From contig OW388296.1 in NCBI GenBank assembly GCA_936450465.1, positions 49,613,750 to 49,677,749 on the forward strand: a DNA stretch of 64,000 nucleotides, given 5' to 3'. Of this stretch, positions 4,690 to 56,207 are shown piece after piece (positions within the stretch are counted from its first letter, which is position 1; each line of letters begins with the position of its first letter). A program made the position numbers and the translations under genes. The notes beneath the pieces were generated by a model that worked only from the letters and a program-made list of their open reading frames with translations, ran no database searches and had not been told where the DNA came from. Source of the stretch: Gibbula magus. Lineage: Eukaryota > Mollusca > Gastropoda > Trochida > Trochidae.

Positions 4690-5250
4690 TGGGAGGCGGG
4701 ATAAGCGCAGTGGTTAGCGCGTTCGACTTCGGATCAAGAGGTTCGGGGTTCGAATCCCGCCAGGCACCTTTGTCTGCAGAGAACTGTTCTACACGCAGTA
4801 AGGTTTGGGTGCAATGCTACACTGATTTTCAACGTAGTACCACCCATGGTTCGCTAGCTCCAGCTGGTGCTCGCAGGTTTCACTGCAATACATAGCCACA
4901 TGGCGTTGCGGGCTTTCTCCCTGCCATAATACCTCACCTTAGAGACAACTGTCAATGTTAAGCATTGGGAGGGATGGTGCAATAGGAAGGAGATTATAAC
5001 ATGGTTTTTGGGAGCGCACACAATTGGTTTGTTTTCCAGTTTGCAAAACATATGGTGATATGTGTCTTGAAACTGCTGGCCAACATTTCTGGAACAATCT
5101 TCCATATCACCTCAGAACACAACCTGATCTATCTGCTTTTAAATCAGATCTAAAGACTTGTCTATTCTCCGAGGCCTTTGTAAAAAAACGTCTTTGAGCG
5201 TTCTACGGATATTGGCGCTATACAAGTATTTGTATGTATTAAGTATATGT
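4690..5250 (+). mobile_element. tRNA-derived SINE with LINE-type tail
   Basis: The head (about 4690-4769) has a pol III A-box-like stretch (AGCGCAGTGGTTAGCG) and a perfect B-box, GGTTCGAATCC, at 4747-4757. The body to about 4930 matches, on the opposite strand, 62836-63034. Bases 5087-5170 translate to a degenerate LINE C-terminal motif (F-W-N-N-L-P-Y-H-L-R ... F-K-S-D-L-K-T-C-L-F) seen at the ends of CR1/L2-like reverse transcriptases. The 3' end, GGCGCTATACAAGTATTTGT, is a typical LINE-recognised tail. Either one SINE sharing a LINE tail, or a SINE lying beside a truncated LINE. Confidence 0.7.
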
Positions 5251-7728: not shown

Positions 7729-9297
7729 TTAAATGGGTACATGTACAAAGGTGATTGATTTCAACTTATCATCTCGATGAGATATGGCATAGGTAACATA
7801 TTGTGCAAGTCTAAGAATGCTGTTATTGTTATCAGAAGAAAGGATTTGTTTAAATGCTAAAGCAGGAGGTTTGGAAAGATAATAATCATGGATAAACTTT
7901 TTCCGTAAATCGTCGTAAGATTGACAAACAAATAGAAAATGGATTTCGTCTTCAACGGCTACTTTACACAATGGACCTATTCTATTGCTTTTGTCGATCG
8001 ATTTGTACCTACCTTCATCAATCATTAAATTTGACAGACCTAATCTGAATCGTATCAATGAATACCTTAACTTCTTGGATGTTAAATGTGAAAGATATCT
8101 TTCGGGTTGGAGTAGGCTTTTAAAGAGTCTATATGAATCATAACGTGAGCTATTATCTAATGTCGACTGCCAATCTTGATTAAACATATTTAATGCTGTT
8201 TCTCGAAATTGATACAAGAAAAGGTTTAAATTACCAACAGTCTGGCTCAGCCAAACAAAACCATAACCATGAGAAAACAAAAGATTTCGAACATGGGATG
8301 CCCATGTTACTTTCCCTAAATCATCTAAATGAACAAGCATGCTGTAAGCCTTCTTAGGTAGTCTATATTCATGCATACATATTATTTTTAACCAAAATTT
8401 CAAACATTTAACATAAGCATTAATATATAACGGGTATCTCCCACATTCCCCATATACCATACATGTTGGAGTCGACTGACCGACACAAAGGAACTTTTTA
8501 CACGCTAACAGATGTACCTTTTCGATGCATTCAAAACGTTGGAATCCCCATATTTCTGATCCATAAAGTAAAATTGGTTGTATTTGACAATCAAAAAGTT
8601 TAAAATATATTTTAGGCGTCAACACGCCAAAATTATGCATAATTGAAAGCAAATTTATGAAAGCTTTCCTTGCTCTTAATGCTAAATCTGCAAGAGATTT
8701 CTTTAAATTTACTGTTGTATTAAACATAAATCCCAAATATTTATACTCGTTACTTACGATCACGGGCTGATTATCATAAAACCATTTTTCTTTAGATGCT
8801 ACCGGCCCACCTTTTCTGAAAATTACAATATTTGTTTTATCCAAATTAACAGTTAATCTATATGTTTTAGAGTAATGTTCTAAAATATTTAACTGGTTTT
8901 GTAGCCCAACTACTGTTTCTGAAATAAGGACAATATCATCGGCAAATAGAAGTTTAAATATTTCTATCAGATCTGGGAACATTTGAACACCATGTTTCCC
9001 GTTCGTTATAACTTCATGGTATAAATCATTAATAAAGAAGGAAAATAGAATTGGACTGAGAACACAACCCTGTCGCAAGCCTATTGGACAATCAAAAAAG
9101 GCAGTCATATTTTCACCACAACGTACACAAGCTTTAACGTTTTCATACATTGACTTCAACAATTTATACATTTTCCCTTTTAGACCAGAATTGCGTAAAC
9201 AATACCAAAGTTTTGATCGATCAACCGAATCAAACGCTTTCTGGAAATCAAAAAAAGCAACATATAGCTTACGCTTTCGTCGAGATAAGGATTGCAA
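7729..9297 (-). pseudogene. LINE A reverse transcriptase, palm to C-terminus
   Basis: A 522-codon open stretch. Visible RT motifs in order: F-F-D-F-Q-K-A-F-D-S-V-D (block A, first catalytic Asp), G-L-R-Q-G-C-V-L-S-P (block B), L-F-A-D-D-I-V-L (block C, catalytic Asp pair) and a Y-K-Y-L-G-F-M block. The C-terminal third ends with a degenerate zinc-knuckle-like arrangement, C-K-V-A-V-E-D-E-I-H-F-L-F-V-C, in which the first C-x2-C pair is reduced (L-C-K-V). The catalytic residues are intact here, but the ORF is cut off from the N-terminal RT part by a frameshift near 9290, so the protein is not expected to be made whole. The initial Met is internal, not a real start. Confidence 0.9.
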
Positions 9298-9655
9298 ACA
9301 GTGTAAATATATGATCTGATGTTGAATATTTTTTTCTGAAACCAGCTTGCGATTCTGGGATAATATGATTCATATTTGACCATCTTGAAAGTCTATTATT
9401 AAGGATTGTGTTGAAAACTTTCCCAAGTACACTCATGAGGGAAATACCTCTATAGTTATCTGGGTTTGAACGATCACCTTTCTTATGTAGAGGAATAATA
9501 ACTGACATTGCCCAATTGCTTGGAAATATACCTTTTACAAAAAGTGTATTGAAACACTTGTTTAGGAATGGCATGATGATAGACTGTGACGAGTTCAACA
9601 TTTCAACAACAAGTTGATCTAAACCAGCGGATTTTCCATTTTTTAAATGAAACAA
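9269..9655 (-). pseudogene. LINE A reverse transcriptase, N-terminal fingers
   Basis: Continues the RT upstream in another frame. It shows the L-K-N-G-K-S-A-G-L-D motif, I-I-P-L-H-K-K-G-D, N-Y-R-G-I-S-L and S-Q-A-G-F-R-K-K-Y-S-T blocks characteristic of non-LTR RT. The frame switches to that of 7729-9297 within the ~29 bases of overlap. Confidence 0.88.
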
Positions 9656-9925
9656 TGCTTCAGAAATTTCTTGATCTGTTATCGGTGAATCAAATAGAAG
9701 AGCTTCGGCATCTGTATAGCATAATCAAATGTTTCTTGATCTACACTACTGGCCGTAAACGAAGGATCGAGAGCGGACTCATTTCTAAAAACTTTCTTGA
9801 AGTGGGTAAGCCATGTCGTTTCGGCAATATTATTGCTTGATATTGGTTTATTCTTATATTTTCGTATTTGTCTCCAAAATTTTGCTGGGGAACTACTGGG
9901 GAACTACTTGCATTGCATAATATCT

Positions 9926-10336
9926 CTACATTACGTTTACGCACATCTGATTTATATCTCCTATACAGAAAGTTTTGTACCTATTTCTCTCTTTACAGTA
10001 TAATCTCCTATCAGATTCGCTGCGATATCTTCTAAATTTTCTCAAAGATTTCCGTGCAACCCTCCTTGCGGACTTGCACTCTGCGTTTAAGGGCGTGCTT
10101 GATCTATGATGTGAATTCACTATACGTTTCTTCATGCAGCTACTAGAGTCTAAAATCATACGTATAAAATCATCTATTGCGTCCTCAACACAAACTTCTA
10201 TTTTATCTAAGATTGGCTGAATTCCAGATTTATAATTTGATGTGAGAGTTTCCAAGAAAGAGTGACAAAACGCATCATTCCATACAATTTGTTCAGGTAA
10301 ATAACTTGGCGATGGGTTACGATTGGGAGTATTCAT
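9926..10336 (-). pseudogene. LINE A endonuclease-RT linker
   Basis: A 136-codon frame between the endonuclease and RT fragments. It has the basic, Arg-rich helical stretch usual for this linker (S-A-R-R-V-A-R-K-S-L-R-K-F-R-R-Y) but no recognisable catalytic motif. Its position and strand, not its sequence, support the call. Confidence 0.65.
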
Positions 10337-10398
10337 TGTAGGAAATATACAAGTTAGTTCCAGTGGTAAATGATCCGATTCTAATTGATCGCCTATAT

Positions 10399-11082
10399 TC
10401 AGTTTACTGATATATTTGAAAAAGTCAGGAGAAGAGATAAAATAATCATTAACGCTACTATACCCTGTTGTCCTACGAAAGTAAATTCCCCCCGTTCGTC
10501 CCCGAACACCCGGCCGTTAACAATAAATAACTGAAAAGAATAGCAGAGGTCAAGCAGAATTTGACCGAACTTATTTATGACAGTATCATATGACTTTCTA
10601 TTTTCAACTGGAGTATAATAATCATCATCATCATCAATTATACCAATACTTGTATGTCTATCATCATTGCGAGAAAACTTGGGGTTATTGCTTTTACCTG
10701 TACGTGCGTTCATATCGCCGCACCACAAAATATGAGAATCTGCTAATTCACTCAAATTCGATAAAAGAAAATCATCTACTTGATCAAGCTTGCATTTAGG
10801 CTCAGCGTGATTATAATAAGATGAACCCTCTGGTGGTATGTATGTACATATCATGTTAATGTTTCTTTCTGTTGAAAATAGGTCTTTAGTGAAATTGAGA
10901 CACACGAAATTATCTATATCATTTCTAATCAATGTACATGCTTTACTTAAAGACTGATGAACACATACACATACACCACCAGAAAGTCTGCCATACTCAG
11001 ATAACTTTATAGCTGGGCTATAAAATATACCAAAGTTAGGTAACCAATCAACATTAGCAATATCATTAACAAAGGTTTCCAC
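10399..11082 (-). pseudogene. LINE A AP-like endonuclease domain
   Basis: The frame includes S-G-G-V-C-V-C-V (strand motif), I-C-T-Y-I-P-P-E and the W-C-G-D-M-N-A-R-T-G catalytic motif of exonuclease-endonuclease-phosphatase LINE endonucleases. The upstream start motif (W-N-V-N-G-L-K-N-K, then V-I-C-L-V-E-T-F) is present just before 11082 but is split by a stop near 11094. The late S-D-H motif region at 10390-10480 is also broken. Confidence 0.85.
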
Positions 11083-11275
11083 AAGACATATAACTTACAA
11101 ATTACATAAATAATCGATGAAGTCAGAGTCATAGATTTTGTTTTTAAGTCCATTCACATTCCAGCAGAGGAAGTTAAACGTTCCTTAACTTCTGTCATCC
11201 TCGCATTATGTATTACGCTCTCTGTTACCGGTGTCAAGGTCCATGTGTGATAAGATCCGGGCCTTGGCCAGCGTC

Positions 11276-11758
11276 CTATGCTAAAGGTGATGTTGGTTCG
11301 GTATCGGTACTAGTGGTAACGATACGACGTCTCTTCTGGTTGAATTTAACGCTCGTTGACTCTGAAGCTGAACGTGAAGTCCCTGTCGCTGAACGTTCTT
11401 TTATGACCAGCTTCCCATCCTTGAAAAATCCAAACTGATTTGTCCCCTTTAGTGTTTGAAGTTGCTGTCGTTGACGTGTTGTCAGGTCACTTGATATACC
11501 ATATCCCTGTTCCTTGAGTGCTGGCCTTGCCTTAAGAGCTCTCACCTTGTCGTCAGACACCATTAGCTTCACAATAACAGGGTGAGGTCGTTCAGTGTGT
11601 TCACGTTGCTTTCCAAGACGATGAGCACGGTGGATATCGCATGACTGCCAGGTTTTAAAAGTAAGGCTGTTATTGAAAACAGAAAGCACCTTTTCTTTGC
11701 AAGCCATAGACTTCTCATTTTCTGATTCAGGCACGCCATACAGAATAACATAGTTCAT
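11276..11758 (-). pseudogene. LINE A ORF1 (RRM-type nucleic-acid-binding protein), 5'-truncated
   Basis: A 160-codon frame beginning within an RRM-like strand (V-I-L-Y-G-V-P-E) and followed by the conserved H-R-L-G-K and R-P-H-P-V-I-V-K motifs of L1-type ORF1 proteins. Then come a basic C-terminal domain and a K-R-R-R tail. The coiled-coil N-terminus expected for the family is missing because the element ends near 11760. ORF1 proteins coat LINE RNA. Confidence 0.75.
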
Positions 11759-15789: not shown

Positions 15790-16008
15790 CGCTCAGACAG
15801 TTAGAATAACAGCACCAACACGCCTCGTTGACAGCTAATTGTCAGTACAGCCTATACGTGGTCGTCCATCCGTGACAGCCACTTGTTCTTCAAGCCAGTT
15901 GATTAACACGCTAATTAGTTACGTCATGGCAGGCGGAGAGTTTACTGTAATTCCAAATGGCAGGTCGATTCTCAGATATTTAAACCGTGTTCGCCGGACG
16001 GAGACTTC
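15790..16008 (+). promoter_or_regulatory. Promoter of acidic coiled-coil gene 1
   Basis: Over 200 bp are closely conserved with the region upstream of gene 2 and recognisably with gene 3. Elements at fixed relative positions: CRE/ATF-like TTACGTCAT at 15919-15927 and TATA box TATTTAAA at 15977-15984, 63 bases before the ATG, implying a 5' UTR of only ~30-40 bases. The open frame through this block (15839-16060) is shared with gene 2 but begins at a non-ATG codon and is best explained by promoter conservation. Confidence 0.75.
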
Positions 16009-16046
16009 ATTTCCAGACACACTGCAGACAGAGGTAGACACGGAAG

Positions 16047-16475
16047 ATGGACAACACTGAAGAACTGTACTCGAACCTACGGGAAACCGAGATGAAGTTC
16101 AAGAAGGCGTGTGGACAGGTCGTTCTCCTGAACGACAAGTTGGAGGGTCTGCAGCGTCGTTATGACAAGGCCAGGACCGAGAATCATCGTTCCTTCAGAT
16201 ACAACCTTCGTCTTAAAATGGCAACAGTGGAAGGAGTACGCAACGCGTATTACGAATACGCCTGTGAGAAGGCGGAGAGAGTTGCAGAACAGCGGTACGA
16301 GTTATCCCTGTTGAACTCCAACTCGGAGGATGATGATGATGAGGAGGAGGAGGAGGAGGAGGAGAGCGAAGACGACGTGGACTGGGATGGAGACGTCATG
16401 GAAGAAGGAGAGGATGGAGAGAATGTGGAGGGGGAGGTTGAGGATGAGGAAGAAATGGACGCTGCAGACATCTGA
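16047..16475 (+). CDS. Acidic-tailed coiled-coil protein, copy 1 (histone-type mRNA)
   Basis: Intronless 142-aa protein with start context GAAGATGG. Residues ~1-90 are charged and probably helical/coiled-coil, with the conserved core E-E-L-Y-S-N-L-R-E-T-E-M-K-F-K-K, L-N-D-K-L-E-G-L-Q-R-R-Y-D-K-A-R, a basic patch R-S-F-R-Y-N-L-R-L-K-M and a signature R-N-A-Y-Y-E-Y-A-C-E-K-A-E-R. From ~93 on it is an almost pure Asp/Glu tail built from GAG/GAT codons. No signal peptide or membrane segment. Family unknown to me. A basic/helical core plus acidic tail would suit a chromatin-binding or histone-chaperone-like role, but that is inference. The gene has its own TATA/CRE promoter and a histone-type 3' end (16529-16562), and is directly repeated at 19151. 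Confidence 0.85.
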   Translation: MDNTEELYSNLRETEMKFKKACGQVVLLNDKLEGLQRRYDKARTENHRSFRYNLRLKMATVEGVRNAYYEYACEKAERVAEQRYELSLLNSNSEDDDDEEEEEEEESEDDVDWDGDVMEEGEDGENVEGEVEDEEEMDAADI

Positions 16476-16528: not shown

Positions 16529-16562
16529 AGCCCTTTTCAGGGCTAACAAATAGCAAGAAAGA
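16529..16562 (+). terminator. Histone-type 3' processing signal, copy 1
   Basis: AGCCCTTTTCAGGGCT at 16529-16544 forms a 6-bp perfect stem with a TTTC tetraloop, the geometry bound by SLBP; the second base pair is G-C as in histones and the first is A-U instead of G-C. CAAGAAAGA at 16554-16562, nine bases after the stem, is the consensus histone downstream element that pairs with U7 snRNA. It lies 53 bases after the stop codon, normal spacing for histone mRNAs. Confidence 0.9.
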
Positions 16563-16574
16563 AATCTTGAAACA

Positions 16575-17060
16575 ATGCGTTTAATAAAAAAAAACTTTAA
16601 AACGATTTAAATGAAATAAACAAAGATGAGGACGACATTACCTTAAAAAGAAATTCCGGTTACTAACTAGAAAAGATAAAATTACCATAACTTCCCTCTT
16701 ACATGTTTCAACTTAATATTCATGGGGTTGACTAAGATATATTATTTATATGATTACCTAATTTCTCAAATAGATATTTTCTGGCCAAATGAGTATCAAA
16801 GTATGGAACATATTCATTTTGAAAGCCATAAAGGATCTATGCTATGTTCTAATCTAGACACTTCATGATGAAGGATGTTTTTGACAGTCGATGGTGGCTG
16901 CATTGAACTTCCATTAATTTAGCAATTCTTTATAATGGGTCCCGCACTTGCTCGGATTTTATTTTCAGTGACATATAGTTTTAAAATGGAGTGTTAGACT
17001 AGTCGAACATATGTGCCATTTCTGGCAAATGCTTTATATGTTCTGTCAATCTGTGTACGA
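16575..17060. other. No gene seen
   Basis: AT-rich spacer downstream of gene 1 with no recognisable structure. Confidence 0.45.
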
Positions 17061-17067
17061 CAATGCA

Positions 17068-17205
17068 ATCACTTTGCCTTCTTCGTGCCTTCTTCGCGTC
17101 TTCTTCGTGTTTTCTTCGTGCCTTCTTCGTGCCTTCTTCGTGCCTTCTTCGTGCCTTCTTCGTGCCTTCTTCGTGCCTTCTTCGTGCCTTCTTCGTGAAT
17201 TCTTC
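17068..17205. repeat. 12-bp tandem repeat (CTTCGTGCCTTC)
   Basis: About 11 near-identical 12-bp units. All frames through it are open because 12 is a multiple of three, which explains several false ORFs on both strands. Confidence 0.95.
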
Positions 17206-18890
17206 GAGAAAATACAGGCCTTCTAGGCATTTTCAAAGAAACCAGATTCCTGTCCAATGTAAAGGGAGTATTGCCGAATCTGTATACGTTAGAAGTCTCC
17301 AATCCACAAATATCAACTGACAGAGAGACAAAATCTCACGTGCAAACGAACCTTCGCCATACCAAAAAATAAAGAGATATTTCAATACATGAGTGATAAA
17401 TACGATTGAAATAGAATTACATCATGTCTTAAGAAGCCAGCTTAAGTAGATTTTGACTTTTGAAAAAGCATCTGTTCATTTTTCTGAAAAACACGCATTT
17501 TAAAAATCATCGTTTTGGAATCTCCTAAGTTATAACTAGACAGTCTATGGGAGTCAAAAGGGGATTTTTTCGTGACGCAATACAGTAAGTCCAAAAAAGT
17601 TATATATGTCGATTACGTCTTTTATTTGTTAAATTTTCACACTTCATAATTTGTTAACTTAACGGAACTTATATATATTTCACGCTTTTTGTCATCATTA
17701 TTGACAAATTATATTATGTAATCGCTGATTAAAACATCGAGACAGACAGCTTCAAGAGCAATTTAGTGGTGTAATATTTGTATCGTACAGTGAAAACGGT
17801 AGCACGCACTGCTAATGATGATTGCCTAAATAGATACAATATCCTAAGCAGCGCCAACATTGCATTAATTCATTTGAACTTTTTAATTTGATGCTGTGAA
17901 CGTATAATTTAGAAATTATTTTATTGATATCTTCCTCGATGATTAGTCGTTTGTATTCTTGACAGAAATAAGCTGTTTAAACGCTATTTATTATCAGAAA
18001 AGGCCTGTGACATAGCGCCTCTGAATGTCAGACATTCTGGCCAAAAACAAATATGAGAAAGGTATTTCATTCGTCCAGTTCAAGTGTATTTTAACAGACA
18101 AAAAATAATAATATCCTACTCTGATGTTTGAATTAGAGTACTGTCACTTCTTTACAAAACATGTGAATGTCAAGGACATTAAACATTGTCTTCTCTGGCA
18201 GCAGCATTTGTATATTTACTTTGAGGAAAATGTGGTAACGTTTGTTTTGTTCGTCAGTTTAGTTCATAAAACATGTATGCAAAAAAATATGCACGCATTC
18301 AACATAGATTACCGACACACTGTCGCTCAAAATACCATTAATATCAAAGTTTTTTTTTATAAAAATGTAATCATTAAGAAAAAAATTCCCTTTAAACATT
18401 TCGATAACAGAAACTGTCAAGAGAGATTCAATAAGGAATCTGACAACATGATATCATTTAAAACTTGTTCTTCGTTTGAAGTGAAAATTAGCATCATGAA
18501 ACTTGAACAATCTTAAAATTTCAATCTACCAATTAACAGTGATTCAACTAATTAAGCATCAAATCACACAATTAGTCGGTCAATTAGGTATAAATTGTTG
18601 ACACAATCTCGCTTGTAGGTTTTCCTCTGACAAGCTAGTAATTTATAAATTCCACTGAAACGAGTCGTCTTTAAATGTGTATTGTTTGGGTTACCGGTAC
18701 ATAGCTTCTCTGATAAAAAAAATGAGATAGTCTCTCAAAAATACTGATTCTATAACACTAGTCATTTTGCTTGTGTATAATAAACAGTGGCAATCGAGAA
18801 AGCCATGTATTTGACAGTCGTTGGCAAGAAGCAATACTGACACTCACATTGACTTGAAAGTTTGAAGTGGCATATCTTAAAGGATAAAGT
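17206..18890. other. Spacer between genes 1 and 2
   Basis: AT-rich. Bases 18060-18125 resemble the first ~65 bases of the window (AAGTGTATTT-AACAGACA...TACTCTGA), a dispersed repeat of unknown type. The 130-codon frame at 18124-18516 has no recognisable domain and AT-driven composition (long Lys/Asn/Ile/Phe runs). I do not call it a gene. Confidence 0.5.
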
Positions 18891-18900
18891 GATGTTGTGT

Positions 18901-19110
18901 CTCGCTCAGACAGTTAGAATAACATTACTAACACGTCTCGTTGAAAGCTAATTGTCAGCACAGCGTACACGTGATCGTCCACCCGTGACAGCCACTTGTT
19001 CTTCAAGCCAGTTGATTAACACGCTAATTAGTTACGTCATGGCAGGCGGAGAGTTTACTGTAATTCCAAATGGCAGGTCGGTTACCAGCTATTTAAACAG
19101 TAGTCGTCAG
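18901..19110 (+). promoter_or_regulatory. Promoter of acidic coiled-coil gene 2
   Basis: CRE-like TTACGTCAT at 19032-19040 and TATTTAAA at 19090-19097, 54 bases before the ATG. The ~90 bases around the CRE are almost identical to gene 1, whereas the TATA-proximal part (CGGTTACCAGCTATTTAAAC) matches gene 3 better. Confidence 0.75.
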
Positions 19111-19150
19111 ACACAGGCTTCACTTCCAGACAGCGAATCAGACAAGCGAG

Positions 19151-19597
19151 ATGGACAACCTGAACAATGAAGAACTGTATTCGAACCTACGGGAAACCGA
19201 GATGAAGTTTAAGAAGGGGTGTGAGCAGGTCGTTCTCCTGAACGACAAGTTGGAGGGTTTACAGCGTCGTTATGACAAAGCCAGGACCGAGAATCATCGC
19301 TCCTTCAGATACAACCTTCGTCTTAAAATGGCCTGCGTGGAAGGAGTACGCAACGCGTATTACGAGTACGCATGTGAGAAGGCGGAGAGAGTTGCTGAAC
19401 TGCGGTATGAAGTGTCCCAGCTGGACGGTAACTCGGAGGACGAGGACGAGGACAGTGAAGACGATGAGGACTGGCAGAGAGACGAGGGTGTCGAGGACGG
19501 AATGGAGGAAGAAGAAGATGAGAATGTGGAGGAGGAAGATGAGGAGGTTGACTTGGAGGAAGTTGAGGAGGAAGAGATGGACGCCACAATCAGCTGA
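19151..19597 (+). CDS. Acidic-tailed coiled-coil protein, copy 2 (histone-type mRNA)
   Basis: 148-aa intronless paralogue of copy 1 in direct orientation ~3.1 kb away. The N-terminus differs from copy 1 (M-D-N-L-N-N-E-E-L-Y) and is shared with copy 3. The core is nearly unchanged (R-R-Y-D-K-A-R-T-E-N-H-R-S-F-R-Y, then R-N-A-Y-Y-E-Y-A-C-E-K-A-E-R). The acidic tail from ~residue 97 is longer and differently punctuated, ending M-D-A-T-I-S. Core conservation with tail-length drift suggests the tail is selected for charge, not sequence. The long opposite-strand frames are shadows of the acidic codons. Function unknown; a histone-type 3' end at 19641-19674 supports co-regulation with its paralogues. 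Confidence 0.85.
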   Translation: MDNLNNEELYSNLRETEMKFKKGCEQVVLLNDKLEGLQRRYDKARTENHRSFRYNLRLKMACVEGVRNAYYEYACEKAERVAELRYEVSQLDGNSEDEDEDSEDDEDWQRDEGVEDGMEEEEDENVEEEDEEVDLEEVEEEEMDATIS

Positions 19598-19640
19598 ACA
19601 GAACAGCTGAACACTCAACTACAGAACAGGCCGTTCTGAC

Positions 19641-19674
19641 AGCCCTTTTCAGGGCTAACAAATAGCAAGAAAGA
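19641..19674 (+). terminator. Histone-type 3' processing signal, copy 2
   Basis: Stem-loop AGCCCTTTTCAGGGCT at 19641-19656 and CAAGAAAGA at 19666-19674, identical to copy 1 in sequence and spacing, 43 bases after the stop. An octamer-like ATGCAAAT lies a little downstream (about 19687). Confidence 0.9.
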
Positions 19675-19689
19675 TGACTTGAAACAATG

Positions 19690-20990
19690 CAAATGTTTAT
19701 TTTTTAAAAATAGCATTCGATAAAATAACGAATTAGAAATTATTTAATGCTGACGCGTTAAAAATGCAACTGATAGAAGATTTTAAAAGGTTTTTTAAGT
19801 GTAGTCAAACAGTAGGAGTGATAACTTAAAACAATGCATTTTGTTACAATATTAAGAAACAACATTACATGTTTTTCATTGAAGAAATCCAATCACATAT
19901 TCTTCAAATACTCTACTATCTGTTTTATATCAACAGAACCTAATATTATGAATTAGCAGAAACAAAAATGTGAGGCCAAAATTTCCAAATTTGAAAATTG
20001 AAGTTACAATGAAAGGAGCCTCTGGCACATCTTCATTTCAAAGGGATAATGACCTTTCTTGACTGTTATAGGCCTGTTGGCTTTAATTCAAAATAATATT
20101 TTGGGTGACTGACTTCATCTTACTAATATACCTCCCCAAAAACAATTGTCATGTTAACGTCTAAGCATTTATCCCAAAAACATTTAGCTAATATCTTCAC
20201 GAAAGTTTCAATCAGCTTTCCTCGATCATTACAAAACAGTATATGCTTGTATTCTTAGTTTGGGGGGGGGGGGGGGGCCATCTTACAGAGACGCCAAGGT
20301 CTAATATTTGGGCGTCATGTAACCTTTTAGCATTGAATTTTAATACAGTTTGCCCAATGATTTGAAATCAGGTCATATTTTGGGTGTTTGACAATGCGGT
20401 TTTAGTCCCTTAAAGCCGGAAATAGGACACTTTCGCCTTTCCAAGAACCGCTACATACCCAAAAAACTGACATCTTTTGGGAGGTACCTTGCAAAATCAA
20501 ATTTTTTCTCTCTATATTTGGTCTTAAATATCTGGATTTGCGTTTCCATCTCGATGTTGGTCCTCCCAACAAATTTCAGGCTGTGGAAAAGTGTAATAGT
20601 CGTAGGAAGAGTTTCAAGATTTTGTTCGAACCACACTGAACACATTCTTCAATTACTGCTATAAGATTATCGCTTCTGTTTCTACACAACCTCAAAGAAA
20701 AGATAACGAAATGGTAACGTCGTAAAAATCCTTTGAAAGTGTTCATTATCTCTTTTATCAATGTGACAATAGAGGTTTGCGCCACGAGACCAAACAGATC
20801 AACGGTAAGATAAACGTGGGTCACATTTGTTTACTTGAAAAACAGTCAACAGCTGGTTGTTATTAATGAAGATATAACTAGCCGTCTTTATGTACCTGGA
20901 CTAAAATTACCAAAGCAAAGCTGCTTGTGGGTGCTTCCGTGTATGAGAAGCTTACAGACCCCTGGGTGTGTGTGTCGAGGGAGGGGGGAC
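19690..20990. other. No gene seen; poly-G tract
   Basis: AT-rich spacer. A homopolymer run of about 17 G lies at 20261-20278. The minus-strand frames at 20451-20824 have no recognisable similarity. Confidence 0.45.
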
Positions 20991-20997
20991 TGTGTGG

Positions 20998-21335
20998 GGT
21001 AGAGATCAAAGCATTCTTTCTTAGAATGGGTCAAAGCATAATCTCTGTGAGAATGGGGTCAAATATTTCTCTCTGTGGGACGGGGGGTCAAATATTTCTC
21101 TCTGTGGGTTGGCGATCAAAGCATTCTCTCTGTGTGAATAAGTCAAAGCATACTCTCTTTGGGACGGATGTCTCTGTGGTTTGCAGATCAAAGATTTCTC
21201 TCCGTGGGGTGCAGATCAAAACATCATCTCTGTGGGTATGGTTCATTCTCTGTGAGAAGGACCAATTCCAAAGCATACTCTCTGTGGAAAGGGGTCAAAG
21301 CATGCTTTCTTTAGATATGAGATCAAAGCATACCT
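20998..21335. repeat. Degenerate ~35-bp minisatellite
   Basis: About nine diverged units built on TCAAAGCATNNTCTCTGTGG. The 211-codon frame at 20927-21562 runs through this array, starts at a non-ATG codon and is not credible as a gene. Confidence 0.85.
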
Positions 21336-21540
21336 TCTTAATTAGGAACGAAGGAAGATTGGAATCAAATATTAACAAAGGAGGGAGAGAAGAGAGGGAC
21401 ATAATATGCCTAAGATATTGGATATATTCTGAACAATACATATCCCGTCCGATATCCCGTGTTACAATTCATGTTTTCAAATTCGTTATTTTAACGACTG
21501 ATATTTGTATTTCTTCTGGACAATTGCATTGTATCAATTC

Positions 21541-21612
21541 ATCTTTTGTTGCTAGTCATTAACCCTGAAAAAGATTACCAGACCAGCCTGTTCTGTAGTT
21601 GAGTGCAAAGCT
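21541..21612 (-). pseudogene. Decayed duplicate of the histone-type 3' end
   Basis: On the minus strand, bases 21612-21541 follow the copy-3 3' UTR (CAACTACAGAACAGGC..., then the stem-loop region at 21561-21576) with substitutions in the stem and a degraded downstream element. It lies ~150 bases beyond the intact signal of copy 3, so the 3' UTR was duplicated, or a fourth gene end was left behind. Confidence 0.6.
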
Positions 21613-21719
21613 ATTCTGTGTGTACATGTTAATGTGTTTAGTCCTAAGAAGGAATTTCCTTTGAAAATGGTTTAAGAATTGTGAATGCTTGTTGTTTATT
21701 ATGGCATTGTTTCAAGTCA

Positions 21720-21753
21720 TCTTTCTTGCTATTTGTTAGCCCTGAAAAGGGCT
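21720..21753 (-). terminator. Histone-type 3' processing signal, copy 3
   Basis: The minus strand reads AGCCCTTTTCAGGGCT (21753-21738), nine bases, then CAAGAAAGA (21728-21720), identical to copies 1 and 2. The flanking GACAGCCC...GGGCTAACAAATAG context is also conserved. Confidence 0.9.
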
Positions 21754-21796: not shown

Positions 21797-22222
21797 TCAG
21801 CTGATTGTGGCGTCCATCTCTTCATCCTCAACCTCCTCATCTTCCTCCTCCACATTCTCGTCTTCTCCTTCCTCCATTCCGTCCTCGACACCTTCGTCTC
21901 TCTCCCAGTCCTCATCGTCTTCACTGTCCTCGTCCTCCGAGTTACCGTCCAGCTGGGACACTTCATACCGCAGTTCAGCAATTCTCTCCGCCTTCTCACA
22001 GGCGTATTCGTAATACGCGTTACGTACTCCTTCTACAGTAGCCATTCTCAGACGAAGGTTGTATCTGAAGGAACGGTGGTTCTCGGTCCTGGCTTTGTCA
22101 TAACGACGCTGTAAACCCTCCAACTTGTCATTCAGGAGAACGACCTGCTCACACCCCTTCTTGAACTTCATCTCGGTTTCCCGTAGGTTCGAATACAGTT
22201 CTTCATTGTTCAGGTTGTCCAT
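21797..22222 (-). CDS. Acidic-tailed coiled-coil protein, copy 3 (histone-type mRNA)
   Basis: 141-aa paralogue, inverted relative to copies 1 and 2. It starts M-D-N-L-N-N-E-E-L-Y like copy 2, with the same core (L-N-D-K-L-E-G-L-Q-R-R-Y-D-K, R-N-A-Y-Y-E-Y-A-C-E-K-A-E-R-I) and a shorter Asp/Glu tail ending M-D-A-T-I-S. At the nucleotide level the coding part is closest to copy 2, while the distal promoter has diverged from both others. TATA box and CRE (22276-22283 and 22333-22341) are upstream on the minus strand. No intron, signal peptide or membrane segment. Family not recognised; see copy 1 for the role inferred. Confidence 0.85.
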   Translation of the reverse strand: MDNLNNEELYSNLRETEMKFKKGCEQVVLLNDKLEGLQRRYDKARTENHRSFRYNLRLRMATVEGVRNAYYEYACEKAERIAELRYEVSQLDGNSEDEDSEDDEDWERDEGVEDGMEEGEDENVEEEDEEVEDEEMDATIS

Positions 22223-22275: not shown

Positions 22276-22460
22276 TTTAAATAGCTGGTAACCGACATGC
22301 CATTCGAAATTACAGTAAACTCTCAATCTGCCATGACGTAATTAATGAGCCTGCTAATCAACTGGCTTGAAGACCAAGTGGCCGTCATGGATGGGTGACC
22401 AAGAGCATCGGTTGTGCTGACAATCAGCTGTCAACGAAGCGTATTAGTACTGTTAATCTA
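22276..22460 (-). promoter_or_regulatory. Promoter of acidic coiled-coil gene 3
   Basis: TATTTAAA on the minus strand at 22283-22276, 54 bases before the ATG. TTACGTCAT on the minus strand at 22341-22333. The distal part (to about 22460) aligns with genes 1 and 2 but carries many substitutions. Confidence 0.7.
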
Positions 22461-22601: not shown

Positions 22602-23039
22602 ATGAATAAGGATAGAGAGGATTGGTTATTTCAACTATGGAATGATAGTGGTCAGTGTAATGGCAATAAGTTGCGGACCTACCGCTTATTTAAACATTTT
22701 CTAAATACTGAATCTTATGTTTCTGCTTCTCTTCAGCGTTCACACCTCAGTATACTCAGCAAACTACGATGTGGCACTCTTCCCTTAGCAATAGAATTAG
22801 GTAGGTTTTCCCTTCCTAAAGTACCTCTGGAACAAAGATTATGTAAATTCTGTAACAGTAATTGTATAGAGGATGAAATTCACTTTCTCGCTGTTTGTAA
22901 TTTCTACTCAGATTTAAGGTATGAATTTTGGAAATGTGTATCGTCTGCTGACCCTTCCTTTCTACATCTCAATCCAACTGACCAGGCTGTATATCTATTA
23001 TCTAACAGTAAGTTATGTAAGCCACTGGCCGCATTAATA
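22602..23039 (+). pseudogene. LINE RT C-terminal domain, outer copy
   Basis: 146 codons of the post-RT region with R-T-Y-R-L-F-K-H-F, S-K-L-R-C-G-T-L-P-L-A-I-E-L-G-R-F and the C-x2-C...H-x4-C motif (C-K-F-C ... H-F-L-A-V-C). 5'-truncated (no palm or FADD motif). The reading frame continues after the nested insertion (see 23701-23736). The first Met is internal. Confidence 0.85.
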
Positions 23040-23692
23040 AGTTAAGGACATATCGGCTTTTTAAAAATACATTTTGTACTTCGGATTATGTAACATCGAT
23101 AAATGACAGAGCACTCCGTAGTTATTTAGCTAAATTTAGAAGTGGCACCCTCCCCTTAGAAATAGAGACTGGTCGTTTCACAAAACCAAAAACTCTTCTT
23201 GAAAATCGTCTATGTAAATTTTGTAATACTAATGTAATTGAAGACGAGGTACATTTTCTTGTAACATGTAATTTATATTCAGACATTAGAAAACCTCTTT
23301 GGAACCGCTCCTCGTCTCTTGATCCAAATTTCCCCCATCTGTCAGAAAAAGATCAACTTATATTTTTAATGAATTATAATCTGAATTACTCAGTTGCCGC
23401 TTTAATAAAAACTATGTTTAGAATTAGACTCGCACACAATATTTTATAATTTAATAATTTTGTATTTTAACCATTGTTTAATCCAACGTGTAAACATCAG
23501 TTTACTGTTTAAATGTATAATTACCTTTTAGCACCTTATGGTGTTTTTATATGTATATTTTAGTAAATTAGTGTCAAATAGGCCCAAGTTGGCCGGGCGA
23601 TGTTTTACTCTGCATTTTATATTGTATCTTATACTTGTATCGCTTGACACTTTAATAAATTATTTTTCTTCTTCTTTCTTCTTCTTCTTCTT
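23040..23692 (+). mobile_element. Nested, 5'-truncated LINE copy with 8-bp TSD
   Basis: Starts at R-T-Y-R-L-F-K-N, carries S-G-T-L-P-L-E-I-E-T-G-R-F and C-K-F-C-N-T-N-V-I-E-D-E-V-H-F-L, ends its ORF with R-L-A-H-N-I-L-stop near 23448, then a 3' UTR with GGCCCAAGTTGGCCGGG and a (TTC)n tail. It is flanked by the direct repeat CATTAATA (23032-23039 and 23693-23700), and removing the insert restores the outer LINE frame. Confidence 0.9.
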
Positions 23693-29235: not shown

Positions 29236-29580
29236 TCAGATTGAAAACATTTGTAATAAGAAACACTTTGTTAGGGTCATTGATGCTGCCCATGTCAGCA
29301 TATACATATCTTTTAATCTCTGGGTTAATGAAAGTACAAAAGTCGATTTTGAATACACATTTTGGTTTATCCAAGTATGACCAACACCGCAATTGAAAAG
29401 TAGTTTTCTTACACCAGTCACCCAGTTTGTTTTACCATTTTTATCATAAACTAACATCATGTTATAAACTTGTTTTAGTAACCTGTCGGAGGGCATGTCA
29501 AGAAGTCTCAGCCAATATGTAATAACATTCATATTCAAATATATATAAAGAAGAAACCTTCCACATTCTCCATACACCAT
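29236..29580 (-). pseudogene. LINE B RT C-terminal fragment
   Basis: Open stretch aligned to LINE A residues after the V-Y-G-E-C-G-R-Y motif, with N-W-V-T-G-V-R-K-L-L-F matching W-A-S-H-V-R-N-L-L-F in LINE A. It ends at a premature stop. Confidence 0.75.
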
Positions 29581-42287: not shown

Positions 42288-43449
42288 TTAACATAACATG
42301 TCCCAAGTTTACATTTATCTCATTAATCAACGTAGACAACTACTTCTTTATTCCATTACAAGGGCGTGATGTGGCATGCATAATGTAAGGCGTCATGCTT
42401 CTATTGGCATATTGAAATACAGCAACACAAGAAAACACATTAATCTGATAAGTCGATGACTCTAAGGATTCAAGTTGTCGCATAATTCTTGCATTGACAG
42501 TTAACCGGTTTTGTTCTTGGCTGTAATGGATCATTGTATGTCTTGGACAATCAGTTTGTTTTCTTCAGTCAAAAGACTATTTTAATAGTGCAATCTGATG
42601 CACAAACATTACCTAAGACTTCTGTTTTAGATCTTTATCATGTAAAAGTTGAAAGTTAGATCACAAATTGAACATTTGCCAAGAAATATGAAATTTCATG
42701 ATTTTGAGAAAATTTTAGTGGCATGTCCTTTGAAGAACTTTCCATAGTAAACCACTGAAGAATTAAACAGGTTTAATGGCTTATGTTGAAGTAGGGGTAT
42801 CATTTTATTAAGGACAAAACATTTCAAACATATATATGTAATAGTTTACGTGTGACAAGTCATGGAAGATTGTCATTTTTCGAAAATCGCCATTTTCTGC
42901 AATTTTCAAAGGATCATGACTCCTTAACTAATTATGCTATTGAAATGTTATTGCCACCTGCGTATGCATAATTTCAAGATCTACAACCTTTATGTTTTAC
43001 TCTTTCATCAAAAAGTTGATAGTTAAGCTTCAAACATCGTAAATGTCGTATAGGGGTCCAAAAACATGCATTTTAAAGTATTTTCTAAATTATTCAGAAG
43101 AACATAAAGCATTAATTATGTATGCTATCTAAATGACGATTACATCTACTTCAGTGGAAATTAAAGCACATCATTTTCTATAGCATACATTAGTATAGAA
43201 ATATTAACCGTTTTGTCTTAATCATGAGAAATGTAATGTAGGGGTCCATTAATATGTTATTTTTCCGTTTTCAGAGGGGTACCTTCTTTGAAGAATTTTT
43301 GTTAAAAAACTACTGAAGATAGAGACATGTTTGATAGTTTTTTAAAGTATTTTAAAGCAGAGAAACAGACGGATAACCCTGAGTCCAACATGGAGTTCAA
43401 GGTCAAGCAGAAGTCTTGAAGACCTAAGTATTGCCTTGGCAATCCTAGT

Positions 43450-44280
43450 TCTTCATTAATGTTGTTCAGCGTATCTGCCCAAAACACTAACCTATTATTA
43501 ATTATGTATGTAAATACTTTACCAAATATGCTGAGCAGTGAGATACATCTATAATTGTTCACATTGTTAAGATCACCTTGTTTATGTATTGGCACAATTA
43601 TCCCCAATGACCAAGCCTCCGGAAATGTTCCCTTTTCAAAGATAATATTAAATACAAGTTCAAGGTGAGGCACAATCATATCTGAAGAGTGTTTAAAACT
43701 CAGGAATTATCTGATCTACCCCTGGTGATTTGTTATATTTAAGATGGTGTATGTTCTCAAGACTTTCATCTTTTGTGATGAGGGAATTCAATATAGCATT
43801 AGCAAACTCAGTGTCTAACTTGGGATGAGTATTGTCTCATAAAGCTGACTTACTCTGATCATGTCAGTGTCATTGCATTAAAACAATTGTGTAAAAGTCA
43901 CTGATGTTGATACTATTTACCTTTTGCCTTTCACACAAGCTGTTTAATTCTGACCAATTATTTTGGAGTCATACATGTTTTTTTTCTAATGATCTTTGTT
44001 AATCTTGAAAGTAGTTTTGTCTCTTTTCTTTGCAGAGAGCTGTATATATGTTTCTTATGTTGTGGTATTCACTGAGTGAGTCCTTATCTTTATCTCTCGC
44101 TTCGTTCTGGATTTACAGTACCTTGAATTTACTTGATGCCACTTTAGAGCCATACATCAGGTAAATCAGATATATCATTATTGAATTCCTCTGGAGTACT
44201 GGCGCTTATTGTATCTAAAGGAACAGAATCACCCTTACGTTTGGATATTGGTTCTAGCGTATTCTATTTTATAAATGCCA
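43450..44280 (-). mobile_element. LINE B, 5' part (linker and RT fingers)
   Basis: Minus-strand frame up to 43679: G-I-I-V-P-I-H-K-Q-G-D, N-N-Y-R-C-I-S-L-L and N-N-R-L-V-F-W-A-D, ending N-I-N-E-E at the insertion point. Further upstream sequence to ~44280 is degenerate linker. It continues at 30476 leftwards. Confidence 0.8.
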
Positions 44281-44344: not shown

Positions 44345-44466
44345 TGATTCTCAATCCTGGCCATTTCGATCCTGTCGTTCAGAAGAACGACCTGCTCACA
44401 CGCCTTCTTGAACTTCATCTCGGTTTCCCGTAGGTTCGAGTATACTTAGACCTCGTTACTGTCCAT
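44345..44466 (-). pseudogene. Broken fourth copy of the acidic coiled-coil gene
   Basis: On the minus strand the ATG at 44466 is followed by M-D-S-N-E-V, a stop, then V-Y-S-N-L-R-E-T-E-M-K-F-K-K-A-C-E-Q-V-V-L-L-N-D in the same frame. An internal deletion then removes about 11 codons before A-R-I-E-N-H. The remainder of the gene, its promoter and the histone-type 3' end are absent. It sits between LINE B and LINE C remnants, 22 kb from the intact cluster, and has been disabled by a nonsense change and truncation. Confidence 0.85.
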
Positions 44467-44919
44467 CTTGCCTGCCCGTCTCTCTTGCCTACCCGTCTCT
44501 CTTGTCTGCCAGTGTGTCTAGATACTATGGTCCTATTTTGCGGACACTTTTCTGAATACTTAAGACAGACAGATGTTTTATTTAAGTCTCACTTCGCAAT
44601 CTTAAAGTACAAATATGAACAGATCTGAACGTTATTTAGAATTACAAAAGAAATATTTGATTAGTTACGAAGAAGAGAAGAAAGAAGAAATATATTTTAT
44701 TAATGTGTCACACGCTCAAATTAACATTAAAATACCATTTAGTATAACATATTTTAAAACAGCGTCCGGCCGTATGGCCTACGAGACACAATTTAACTTT
44801 TAAAAATCTGTTCTTTTCTCAAGAACAACATACAAATACATACACACATACAATTGCCTTGCACACAAACACATACGCACACGCACACAACCATTCTTAT
44901 CTCGTAAATAAAGTGGCAC

Positions 44920-45418
44920 CACTCTCCTGGCAACCATTCACTCATACACTAACACTGTCCTAGCAACCATTCACTCATACACTAACACAACACTCTCCTA
45001 GCAACCATTCACTCATACACTAACACAACACTCTCCTAGCAACCATTCACTCATACACTAACACAACACTCTCCTAGCAACCATTCACTCATACACTAAC
45101 ACAACACTCTCCTAGCAACCATTCACTCATACACTAACACAACACTCTCCTAGCAACCATTCACTCATACACTAACACAACACTCTCCTAGCAACCATTC
45201 ACTCATACACTAACACAACACTCTCCTAGCAACCATTCACTCATACACTAACACAACACTCTCCTAGCAACCATTCACTCATACACTAACACAACACTCT
45301 CCTAGCAACCATTCACTCATACACTAACACAACACTCTCCTAGCAACCATTCACTCATACACTAACACAACACTCTCCTAGCAACCATTCACTCATACAC
45401 TAACACAACACTCTCCTC
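44920..45418. repeat. 38-bp minisatellite, ~13 units
   Basis: Unit CACTCTCCTAGCAACCATTC plus ACTCATACACTAACACAA. All but the first two units are identical, indicating very recent expansion or active homogenisation, and likely length polymorphism between individuals. Confidence 0.97.
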
Positions 45419-45515
45419 CTGTACATTCGGTGGACAAGTGCGGCCAGGGGTTTAAACATTGTTTTTCATTACGCATATAGCTTGTTGGTCGGCAGACAAC
45501 AAAGCGAAGGCAGAG

Positions 45516-54289: not shown

Positions 54290-55546
54290 TTAGACGCGAG
54301 TGTTTTGGATCAAACAAGGAGGAGATCGACAAATAAATTCAGGAGCGAAAGACTGTATCTGTGACAGATGGATCTCAGATAAGTGCATTTCTACCAACCG
54401 CGAGTGCTGGGTCTTCCCGCCATGATCATAATGGCGATAGACATTGATCCGGGGACCGGGCGCTTCTCTCCTCACAATTTCATACTGGTCCGCAAAGGCG
54501 CAGCATATGATCTGCTTAGGAGTGCGGATGATGGCTCGCCTGAAGCTCTTCTCGCATACATTGTAGATAACAAAGTTGATGGCGAAGTTGAAGTAGTTCA
54601 GCAGCTGCGTCACTTGAAGGAGGAGGAACTCAAGGTCGGTGGTTTTGTAACTGGGCTGGAAGAGCGTTCTGAACACAGCCTGGGCCCTCACTGCGTGGCT
54701 GGGCACGTTCAATAGAAGGAAGACAATAGCCACCGTCGCCAACATCTTGATCGTCTTCTTCTGCATTTTGGAGACCGTCTTGGCTCGATGATTTGCCGTC
54801 GGTTCGTCGTCCGAGGTCGGGTTTGCGATGTTGGTAGAGGGAGGGGGATCTCTGCTGAAAATCCGCATGGTCACCACGACGATTCTGGCATTCATGAAGA
54901 TGAGGAGTGAAAAGGGAAGCAGGAGAGATAATATGATATCTGCAAAAGTCAGTCCGATCAGCACGTTTCTGCTCCCGATGATGGGAACGCAGCACATTTT
55001 GCCCCCGAGGAGGATCGACTTGGCGGTCCATAGGGAATACAGGTACATCAGACACGCGAGACTGAAGAAGAAGCAGACGACAATCCTCATCGTGGCAGGT
55101 TTCGAAGTCTTCTGTGAAAGGTCGGGATAGAAGATGCAGATATACATTTCAGCTGTGAAACAAACCACGAACCAGACGGACAGGAAACTGAAGACGTAGG
55201 TCAACCACACCACGAGCTGACATATCCCAGGACCATGGAACACGTCAATGCCAAGGTCACCCAACCAGCCGATTCCTAAGAGGAGGAGGAAGCCCGTGTC
55301 TACGAATGCCAGAGCTGCTAGATATACGGAGGTCGCTAGACGCTTCAGTTTAGTTCCGACGAAGACGACAAAGGATATGCTGTTGCCGATGACACCAGTG
55401 ATGATGATGATAGGGATGACATAACGGTGGCATATGAATTTGAAGTACTCAAACTTTTCAAATCTCCCAGTGTGTACGTCTTCTATGCTACTGACGTTGT
55501 GCAAATATTCTGATCCATTTGAGACACCACCATCAAGCTCCATCAT
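54290..55546 (-). CDS. Rhodopsin-class GPCR, peptide-receptor-like
   Basis: 418 aa from M-M-E-L-D-G-G; a longer frame to 55678 runs into intron/tandem repeat and is not used. The N-terminus has two N-glycosylation sites (N-G-S, N-V-S). TM1 has G-N (the 1.50 Asn), TM2 A-L-A-F-V-D, a TM3 cysteine (G-P-G-I-C) and an ECL2 cysteine (M-C-C-V-P) for the usual disulfide. The DRY box is changed to E-M-Y (T-A-E-M-Y-I-C-I-F-Y-P), so the Arg is lost. TM6 reads L-L-L-N-V-P-S-H-A-V-R and TM7 N-F-A-I-N-F-V-I-Y-N in place of NPxxY, as in neuropeptide/FMRFamide-type receptors. The tail has a C-C palmitoylation-like pair and ends N-T-R-V, a class I PDZ-type motif. The coding exon is single after a splice acceptor (exon begins at 55571). 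Ligand unknown. Confidence 0.88.
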   Translation of the reverse strand: MMELDGGVSNGSEYLHNVSSIEDVHTGRFEKFEYFKFICHRYVIPIIIITGVIGNSISFVVFVGTKLKRLATSVYLAALAFVDTGFLLLLGIGWLGDLGIDVFHGPGICQLVVWLTYVFSFLSVWFVVCFTAEMYICIFYPDLSQKTSKPATMRIVVCFFFSLACLMYLYSLWTAKSILLGGKMCCVPIIGSRNVLIGLTFADIILSLLLPFSLLIFMNARIVVVTMRIFSRDPPPSTNIANPTSDDEPTANHRAKTVSKMQKKTIKMLATVAIVFLLLNVPSHAVRAQAVFRTLFQPSYKTTDLEFLLLQVTQLLNYFNFAINFVIYNVCEKSFRRAIIRTPKQIICCAFADQYEIVRREAPGPRINVYRHYDHGGKTQHSRLVEMHLSEIHLSQIQSFAPEFICRSPPCLIQNTRV

Positions 55547-55555
55547 CACCAGCAA

Positions 55556-56207
55556 ACGTTCTGAACTTTGTCTGAAAGATAAGTAGATTCCGTCATGATG
55601 TGTGTTTTTGTTACATAACGTAATGTAGGTTAACGTCTGTATTATAATTATATCAAAACTCGATTCCAGAAACATCACTCATAATGTATTCAACTATCTT
55701 TGATGCAACTCTTACATTACGTTCTGAACTTTGTCTGAAAGATAAGTAGATTCAGTCATGATGTGTGTTTTTAGATTATATAACGTAATGTAGGTTAACG
55801 TCTGCATTATAATTATATCAAAACTCGATTCCAGAAACATCACTCATAATGTATTCAACTATCGTTGATGCAACTCTTACATCACGTTCTGAACTTTGTC
55901 TGGAAGATAAGTAGATTCAGTCATGATGTGTGTTTTTAGATTACATAACATAATGTAGGTTAACGTCCGCATTATAATTATATCAAAACTCGATTCCAGA
56001 AACATCAATCAGAATATATTCAACCACTTTGATGCAACTCTTACATCACGTTCTGAACTTTGTCTGAAAGAAAAGTAGATTCAGTCATGATGTGTGTTTT
56101 TACATTACATAACGTAATGTAGGTTAACGTCTACATTATAATTATATCAAAACTCGATTCCAGAAACATAGCTCAGAATGTATTCAACTCTCTATGCTAC
56201 AACCTTT
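55556..56207. repeat. 164-bp tandem repeat carrying a splice acceptor, four units
   Basis: Four units at 163-165-base spacing. On the minus strand each contains a TTATCTTTCAG-like acceptor followed by ACAAAGTTCAGAACG (acceptor AG at about 55573, 55736, 55901 and 56065). The unit nearest the GPCR supplies the acceptor of its coding exon. Units 2-4 follow that segment with GTAATGTAAG- or GTGATGTAAG-like sequence, a possible donor. Confidence 0.9.

Follow-up and report, generated by a model that had tools for sequence, protein, structure and literature searches.

Three papers describe replication-dependent histone messenger RNAs (mRNAs) as the only known mRNAs in which a stem-loop stands in place of a polyadenylate (poly(A)) tail (PMC6303110, PMC7026596, PMC2642717). 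A study of Hydractinia histones reports the stem-loop together with a purine-rich element (PMC5011920), and in the clam Lucina the stem-loop is reported for all histone mRNAs and a purine element for only a part of these (PMC6210712). Our search for literature on non-histone genes with such an ending, made by titles and abstract openings and with subscription papers mostly outside its coverage, found none. Here, we analysed a stretch of 64,000 nucleotides (nt) from the gastropod Gibbula magus, hereafter the window (C8:49.61-49.68 Mb of the 1.47-Gb assembly, C8 and similar labels denoting contigs), which contains three intact genes of an acidic protein family, hereafter the hairpin family, each ending with a histone-type stem-loop and a purine-rich downstream element. 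The genes of the window and of their family, although not histone genes, very probably carry genuine 3' ends of the replication-dependent histone type, which would be processed via the SLBP/U7 pathway.

The window genes, their 3' ends and their proteins

The three coding sequences are located at 16047..16475 (gene 1, + strand, a single open reading frame (ORF) of 142 aa coding for a helical hairpin with an acidic tail), 19151..19597 (gene 2, + strand, 148 aa, identified by ORF, family match and structure prediction) and 21797..22222 (gene 3, - strand, 141 aa, identified by ORF). The 3' ends of 3/3 genes exhibit the stem-loop AGCCCT-TTTC-AGGGCT, with a stem of 6 bp and a loop of 4 nt, followed by a 9-nt spacer and by the purine-rich element CAAGAAAGA, which is the sea-urchin element. 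The stem-loops lie at 16529..16544 (gene 1, +), 19641..19656 (gene 2, +) and 21738..21753 (gene 3, -), respectively 53, 43 and 43 nt after the end of the stop codon, and the elements at 16554..16562 (+), 19666..19674 (+) and 21720..21728 (-). This arrangement had been described from the letters alone by an earlier sequence-only reading of the window, and our motif searches confirmed it. The second base pair, G-C, and loop positions 1 and 3 are the most important for SLBP.

With three mismatches permitted, the stem-loop AGCCCTTTTCAGGGCT showed exactly three matches in the window for a chance mean of 0.24, and CAAGAAAGA occurred four times for a chance mean of 1.18, the fourth occurrence, at 10253, being away from the genes. 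The combination of a perfect 6-bp stem, a loop TT[TC][CTA] and AAGAAAG 6-20 nt further on was found 3 times in the window vs 2 times in 200 simulated first-order Markov windows of equal size. Between the window copies, which differ by 0.21-0.51 synonymous substitutions per site (dS), the 34-nt block running from stem to element was unchanged at 34/34 sites, with the preceding untranslated region (UTR) 72-93% identical and the region beyond 22-29% identical. The similarity of the copies (80-90% identity) begins near -250 and ends some 20 nt beyond the element. The ratio of nonsynonymous to synonymous substitution (dN/dS) was 0.10-0.28, with 0.13-0.28 for gene 1 against genes 2 and 3 and 0.10 for gene 3 against gene 2. 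Since the three copies are duplicates, they do not count as three independent cases.

The window genes are short and intronless, a single ORF lying between the TATA box and initiator (Inr) on one side and the stem-loop on the other. The TATA-like sequence TATTTAAA was read at 15977..15984 (+) in gene 1, 19090..19097 (+) in gene 2 and 22276..22283 (-) in gene 3. In gene 1 it is followed, at a distance of 32 bp, by the A of the Inr-like sequence TCATTTC, whose TCA occupies 16007-16009. The distances of the TATA and Inr-like sequences before the ATG are -61/-31 in gene 2 and -70/-40 in gene 1, compared to -62/-31 in the H4 gene of the same genome.

The encoded proteins are not histones, as the sequence-only reading had stated. 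The window proteins matched no family of Pfam or NCBIfam above cut-off and, in particular, no histone family of Pfam, and no core histone was matched in the window by tblastn at E<=1 (H1 not included in this search). AlphaFold2 predicted a two-helix hairpin formed by residues 6-47 and 50-93, with block means of confidence of 96-99 over residues 11-90; the tail has no helix and was predicted with lower confidence. Searches with this fold returned generic hairpins only. The first sequence search gave 76 relatives and the profile search 266 at E <= 10; among the best 120 of these 266, the organism-named relatives were from the molluscs Patella caerulea, Mya arenaria, Dreissena polymorpha and Mactra antiquata. 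By a simple rule, the tail was net acidic in 105/116 relatives, 5/121 without the anchor motif being excluded.

The 3' ends of the genome's own histone genes

An H4 search of the assembly gave 70 matches. Of these, 67 belong to tandem arrays, one on C2 (104.1-104.3 Mb) and one on C8 (80.36-80.45 Mb), both distant from the window. The own H4 end is GGTCCT-TTTC-AGGACC-ACCAAATATCAAAAAAGA, with H2B and H3 as close variants, and the own H1 end is GGCCCT-TTTC-AGGGCC-ATCCAAATATCCAGAAAGA. A common geometry of stem, spacer ending in CAAAT and purine block was found in the own H4, H2B, H3 and H1 ends and in the hairpin family, the window genes and own H4 having 9 nt between stem and element and the family's tandem array on C11 having 10 nt. 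The sequence-only reading had called CAAGAAAGA the exact U7-pairing element; it is indeed present 9 nt after 3/3 stems, but the own core-histone elements are CAAAAAAGA (H4), TCAAAAGAGA (H2B) and TCAAAAAAGG (H3), and none of them is exactly CAAGAAAGA.

A covariance model (R1) was then built from 8 own histone 3' ends alone. With this own-histone model, the three window sites ranked top, with 49.8 bits (E 1.4e-9), 45.0 and 45.0 bits for genes 1, 2 and 3, the next score being 17.4, which supports the earlier description of these sites as replication-dependent histone-type 3' ends. Downstream of gene 3, sequence comparison revealed a degenerate second 3' end of the family (21523-21619, -), with the element changed to CAACAAAAGA; its stem at 21561-21576, AATCTT-TTTC-AGGGTT, could by eye still pair, thanks to a double change and to G-U pairing at two positions. 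This degenerate copy was absent from the own-histone model matches at E<=10.

The own H1 genes of the following two arrays were named from sequence alone. On C1 (53.67-53.87 Mb), H1 and 5S ribosomal RNA (Rfam, 116.8 bits) share one tandem unit of ~3.8 kb, with 27 H1-type stem-loops among the matches listed. A second H1 array at C16:32.15-32.37 Mb and beyond has a unit of ~3.2 kb coding for a 190-aa H1 (one unit read).

Paralogs and other genes carrying the ending

In the genome-wide family search, 150 of 1325 first-look candidates were scored. Six genes of the C8 type were found, three of them in the window, with the TTTC stem-loop in 6/6; the gene at C8:53.82 Mb has an altered downstream element. 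On C11, a 101-aa paralog forms a head-to-tail tandem array with one gene per unit, the units being mostly ~1338 bp. The stem-loop pattern of this array gave 362 matches, compared to 70 for H4 in this assembly, and the 100 matches listed were all on C11. Among the first 48 copies read (6 on C8 and 42 on C11), 40 exhibited a standard stem (one of three) and 8 a variant. In the 62 C11 units read, the ORF was intact in 59 and the loop was TATC in 60, with 26 nt between stop and stem. A site scoring 31.5-52.6 bits with the own-histone model was present at 37/37 family gene matches (35 in the array and 2 on C8), the next score being 14.8; the count comes from nine stretches, with genes matched to sites by hand, two matches at stretch ends excluded and one match aligned only from residue 24. 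The C11 and C8 paralogs have the stem in common, with core coding DNA only 67-69% identical and a dS not computable by NG86 (returned as -1 and taken as saturated).

A third paralog occupies six places, two of them on C5 and one each on C1, C12, C13 and C17, with 99.6-100% identity over ~680 bp and the stem AGCTCT-TTTC-AGAGCT, which scored 60.5 bits at each place. Between the C1 copy and one C5 copy, identity continues on both sides of the stem, upstream at ~960-1210 nt (249 nt aligned, 100%) and downstream at ~300-500 nt (191 nt aligned, 99%). The six copies look as though they had travelled with a recent mobile element. C11 also holds a divergent paralog, with 36-39% amino acid identity, which carries GGCCCT-TTTC-AGGGCC (39.8 bits). 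Since the third and the divergent paralogs were found via their stems, the stem match is partly by construction, and their family coding sequence is not.

The sequence-only reading had proposed to scan for the ending outside histone genes; run here in this genome, the scan showed it on other family members and on genes coding for SET-domain and cysteine-rich (Cys-rich) proteins. The pattern CCTTWTCAGGRCYAN{1,2}CAAAT gave 844 matches genome-wide vs 0 for the reversed control, and the pattern CCTTTTCAGGGCCAN{1,2}CAAAT, with an H1-type stem, 257 vs 0. At most 100 places were listed per pattern, so that most of the 844 stand without one-by-one assignment. Among the matches listed for the CCTTTTCAGGGCCAN pattern, 13 were dispersed places, away from the arrays on C1 and C16, and the 10 that were read corresponded to four SET-domain genes, two Cys-rich genes, three orphan H1 genes and one divergent hairpin paralog, identified by Pfam or by a by-eye likeness to the scanned copy. 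The SET-domain copy scanned on C10 matched PF00856 (E 3e-13) and the orphan H1 copy PF00538 (E 9e-22). The SET-domain genes, closely alike, occupy five dispersed places at C10:69.09-71.50 Mb (four read) and have a perfect CAAGAAAGA; the Cys-rich family, at C9:38.10 Mb and C14:16.71 Mb, matched no Pfam family above cut-off. All ten genes read, the SET-domain and Cys-rich ones included, are known from their 3' parts only, introns further upstream being possible. In 10/10 of the dispersed places read, an open frame 116-203 codons long had its stop 23-47 nt before the stem, an arrangement that the pattern does not impose. The scores of 39.8-53.7 bits of these sites with the own-histone model are partly by construction, the places having been found by stem pattern.

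Elsewhere in the window, sequence comparison showed a truncated 5' fragment of a hairpin-family gene (44373..44469, -), near which no family-type stem-loop was found; some 500 bp from it, a tandem repeat of ~38 bp was seen by eye at about 44950-45420. By eye also, reverse-transcriptase-like ORF pieces of the long interspersed nuclear element (LINE) type were noted at 7729-11758, 22602-23045, 29236-29580 and 43302-43679, and a seven-helix receptor-like ORF of 461 aa at 54290-55675 (-). A transfer RNA-like match at 4695-4762 scored 31.3 bits for a cut-off of 29.

Proposed processing, rival explanations and known systems

What is observed directly is that the sequence signals are present, that they match those of the own histones and that diverged paralogs conserve them, and the simplest account of the geometry, of the own-histone model scores and of this conservation is the use of the SLBP/U7 pathway. 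SLBP, assumed here from metazoan biology, would bind the stem-loop and the U7 small nuclear ribonucleoprotein the purine element; the pre-mRNA would then be cleaved ~4-5 nt after the stem, ahead of the element, to yield a short intronless mRNA without poly(A). The hairpin-family mRNAs may thus be processed by SLBP and U7, lack poly(A) and be coupled to S phase or, as the sequence-only reading had also proposed, be stored maternally. The ending would be an old property of the family, shared by the window genes, the array of hundreds of copies, the dispersed mobile-like copies and the very divergent paralog.

Several results weigh against this account. With Rfam Histone3 (gathering cut-off 34), which was scanned over the window copies, the array and the own H1, H4, H2B and H3, the latter four passed with 40.5, 38.2, 37.3 and 36.2 bits, whereas the window sites of genes 1, 2 and 3 reached 24.0, 17.5 and 17.5 bits and the array 25.0, all below the cut-off; the A-U first pair and the lack of an A-rich 5' flank are the likely causes. 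The U7 small nuclear RNA (RF00066) was not found in the assembly, the control genomes being likewise empty. Between the histones and the family, 2/6 stem pairs differ on both sides with all pairing retained (7 distinct sequences), which speaks for the account, but this is one contrast, its count is matched by 407/500 shuffles (the covariation score by 0/500), and the own histone stems had been chosen by a filter requiring pairing. In the C11 array, six pairs were formed in 55 of the 62 units and five in the other 7, G-U being counted. Deviation from the consensus in these 62 units was 0.025 per site in the stem-loop vs 0.0024 in the coding sequence, and in 53 units the variable sites were 5/16 in the stem-loop vs 26/306 in the coding sequence, with 0/26 between stop and stem, 5/19 in spacer plus element and 30/60 in the next 60 nt. 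The coding variants of the array were 22 nonsynonymous vs 6 synonymous. Finally, genes 1 and 3 have an AATAAA, a signal with a base rate of 1.28 per kb per strand, at respectively 54 and 53 nt downstream of where the stem begins.

This last signal allows a backup poly(A) form and is the starting point of the main rival, according to which the 3' ends work in two modes, by the stem-loop in S phase and by the downstream poly(A) signal otherwise. There are parallels for it, a stem-loop with a putative poly(A) signal being reported for bdelloid H2Abd/H2Abd1 (PMC2642717), and dual 3'-end processing for H2A.X (PMC7807067). Against it, neither AATAAA nor ATTAAA occurs within 400 nt of the stem start of gene 2, and AATAAA is likewise downstream of the stem-loop in the own C1 H1 unit, so that the signal does not distinguish the window genes; we regard the two-mode reading as unlikely. 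It appears doubtful, too, that the family is the cargo of a mobile element, with an ending that spreads along with it and a function that benefits the element instead of the cell cycle of the host. The six near-identical copies of the third paralog on five contigs, with the C1/C5 identity extending outside the ~680 bp, would fit such a cargo, as would the dispersed SET-domain copies on C10, but five window-type copies and the array copies are in local clusters, and no relative was found in a viral contig collection; the flanks of the six copies were scarcely read, mobility genes being neither found nor excluded.

A histone 3' end captured once, no longer used and hitch-hiking on gene duplication would account for the duplicate nature of the window copies, for an array stem-loop more variable than its coding sequence and for the scores below the Rfam cut-off. 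We nevertheless hold it to be improbable, given a stem and spacer retained across paralogs with saturated synonymous sites, a stem on the 36-39% identical paralog (itself found via the stem pattern), the invariant 34-nt block of the window copies and the both-side pair changes, read with the limits given above. That a chance hairpin or an unrelated structure lies beside a purine run can practically be dismissed: it would agree with the absence of an Rfam call at Rfam's own cut-off, but the ranking of the window sites as the top three by the own-histone model already makes chance very unlikely, and both the simulated windows and the genome-wide controls argue in the same direction.

Under SLBP/U7 processing, molluscs would probably possess a wider regulon in which the histone 3' end also serves the lineage-specific acidic hairpin family with its hundreds of tandem copies, the SET-domain genes and the Cys-rich family, and these would be the first non-histone metazoan mRNAs with an SLBP stem-loop replacing poly(A). 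The hundreds of copies, the acidic tail and the presence of a like ending on histone and SET genes point, as a guess, to a role in early development in supplying histones or chromatin. We tentatively propose that the hairpin protein might be a small acidic factor whose production keeps pace with that of DNA and histones, for example a protein of chromatin or of histone handling that oocytes or cleaving embryos require in large amounts. If true, a non-histone family under histone 3'-end control would overturn the histone-only rule, explain why such genes would escape poly(A)-selected data and offer a natural test of the purpose of the histone 3' end, namely which other proteins need a supply proportional to replicated DNA.

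Compared with the replication-dependent histone 3' end (Rfam RF00032), the sites described here share the 16-nt stem-loop with 6 pairs, a UUUC loop and G-C as second pair, the spacer ending in CAAAT and, as in own H4, the purine element 9 nt on; the genes also resemble replication-dependent histone genes in their short UTRs, TATA box and lack of introns. They differ by their non-histone proteins, their sub-cut-off Rfam score, the A-U first pair and non-A-rich 5' flank in the window and the TATC loop of the array. In having an AATAAA beyond their stem-loop, genes 1 and 3 are like H2A.X and the bdelloid H2A variants, which, unlike the window genes, are histones. Finally, the C11 array, with one non-histone gene per ~1.34 kb unit and no core histone found in the array stretches read, is unlike the own histone arrays (core histones on C2 and C8, H1 and 5S on C1, H1 on C16) in content, and like them in consisting of many near-identical, intronless, head-to-tail genes with a histone-type end.

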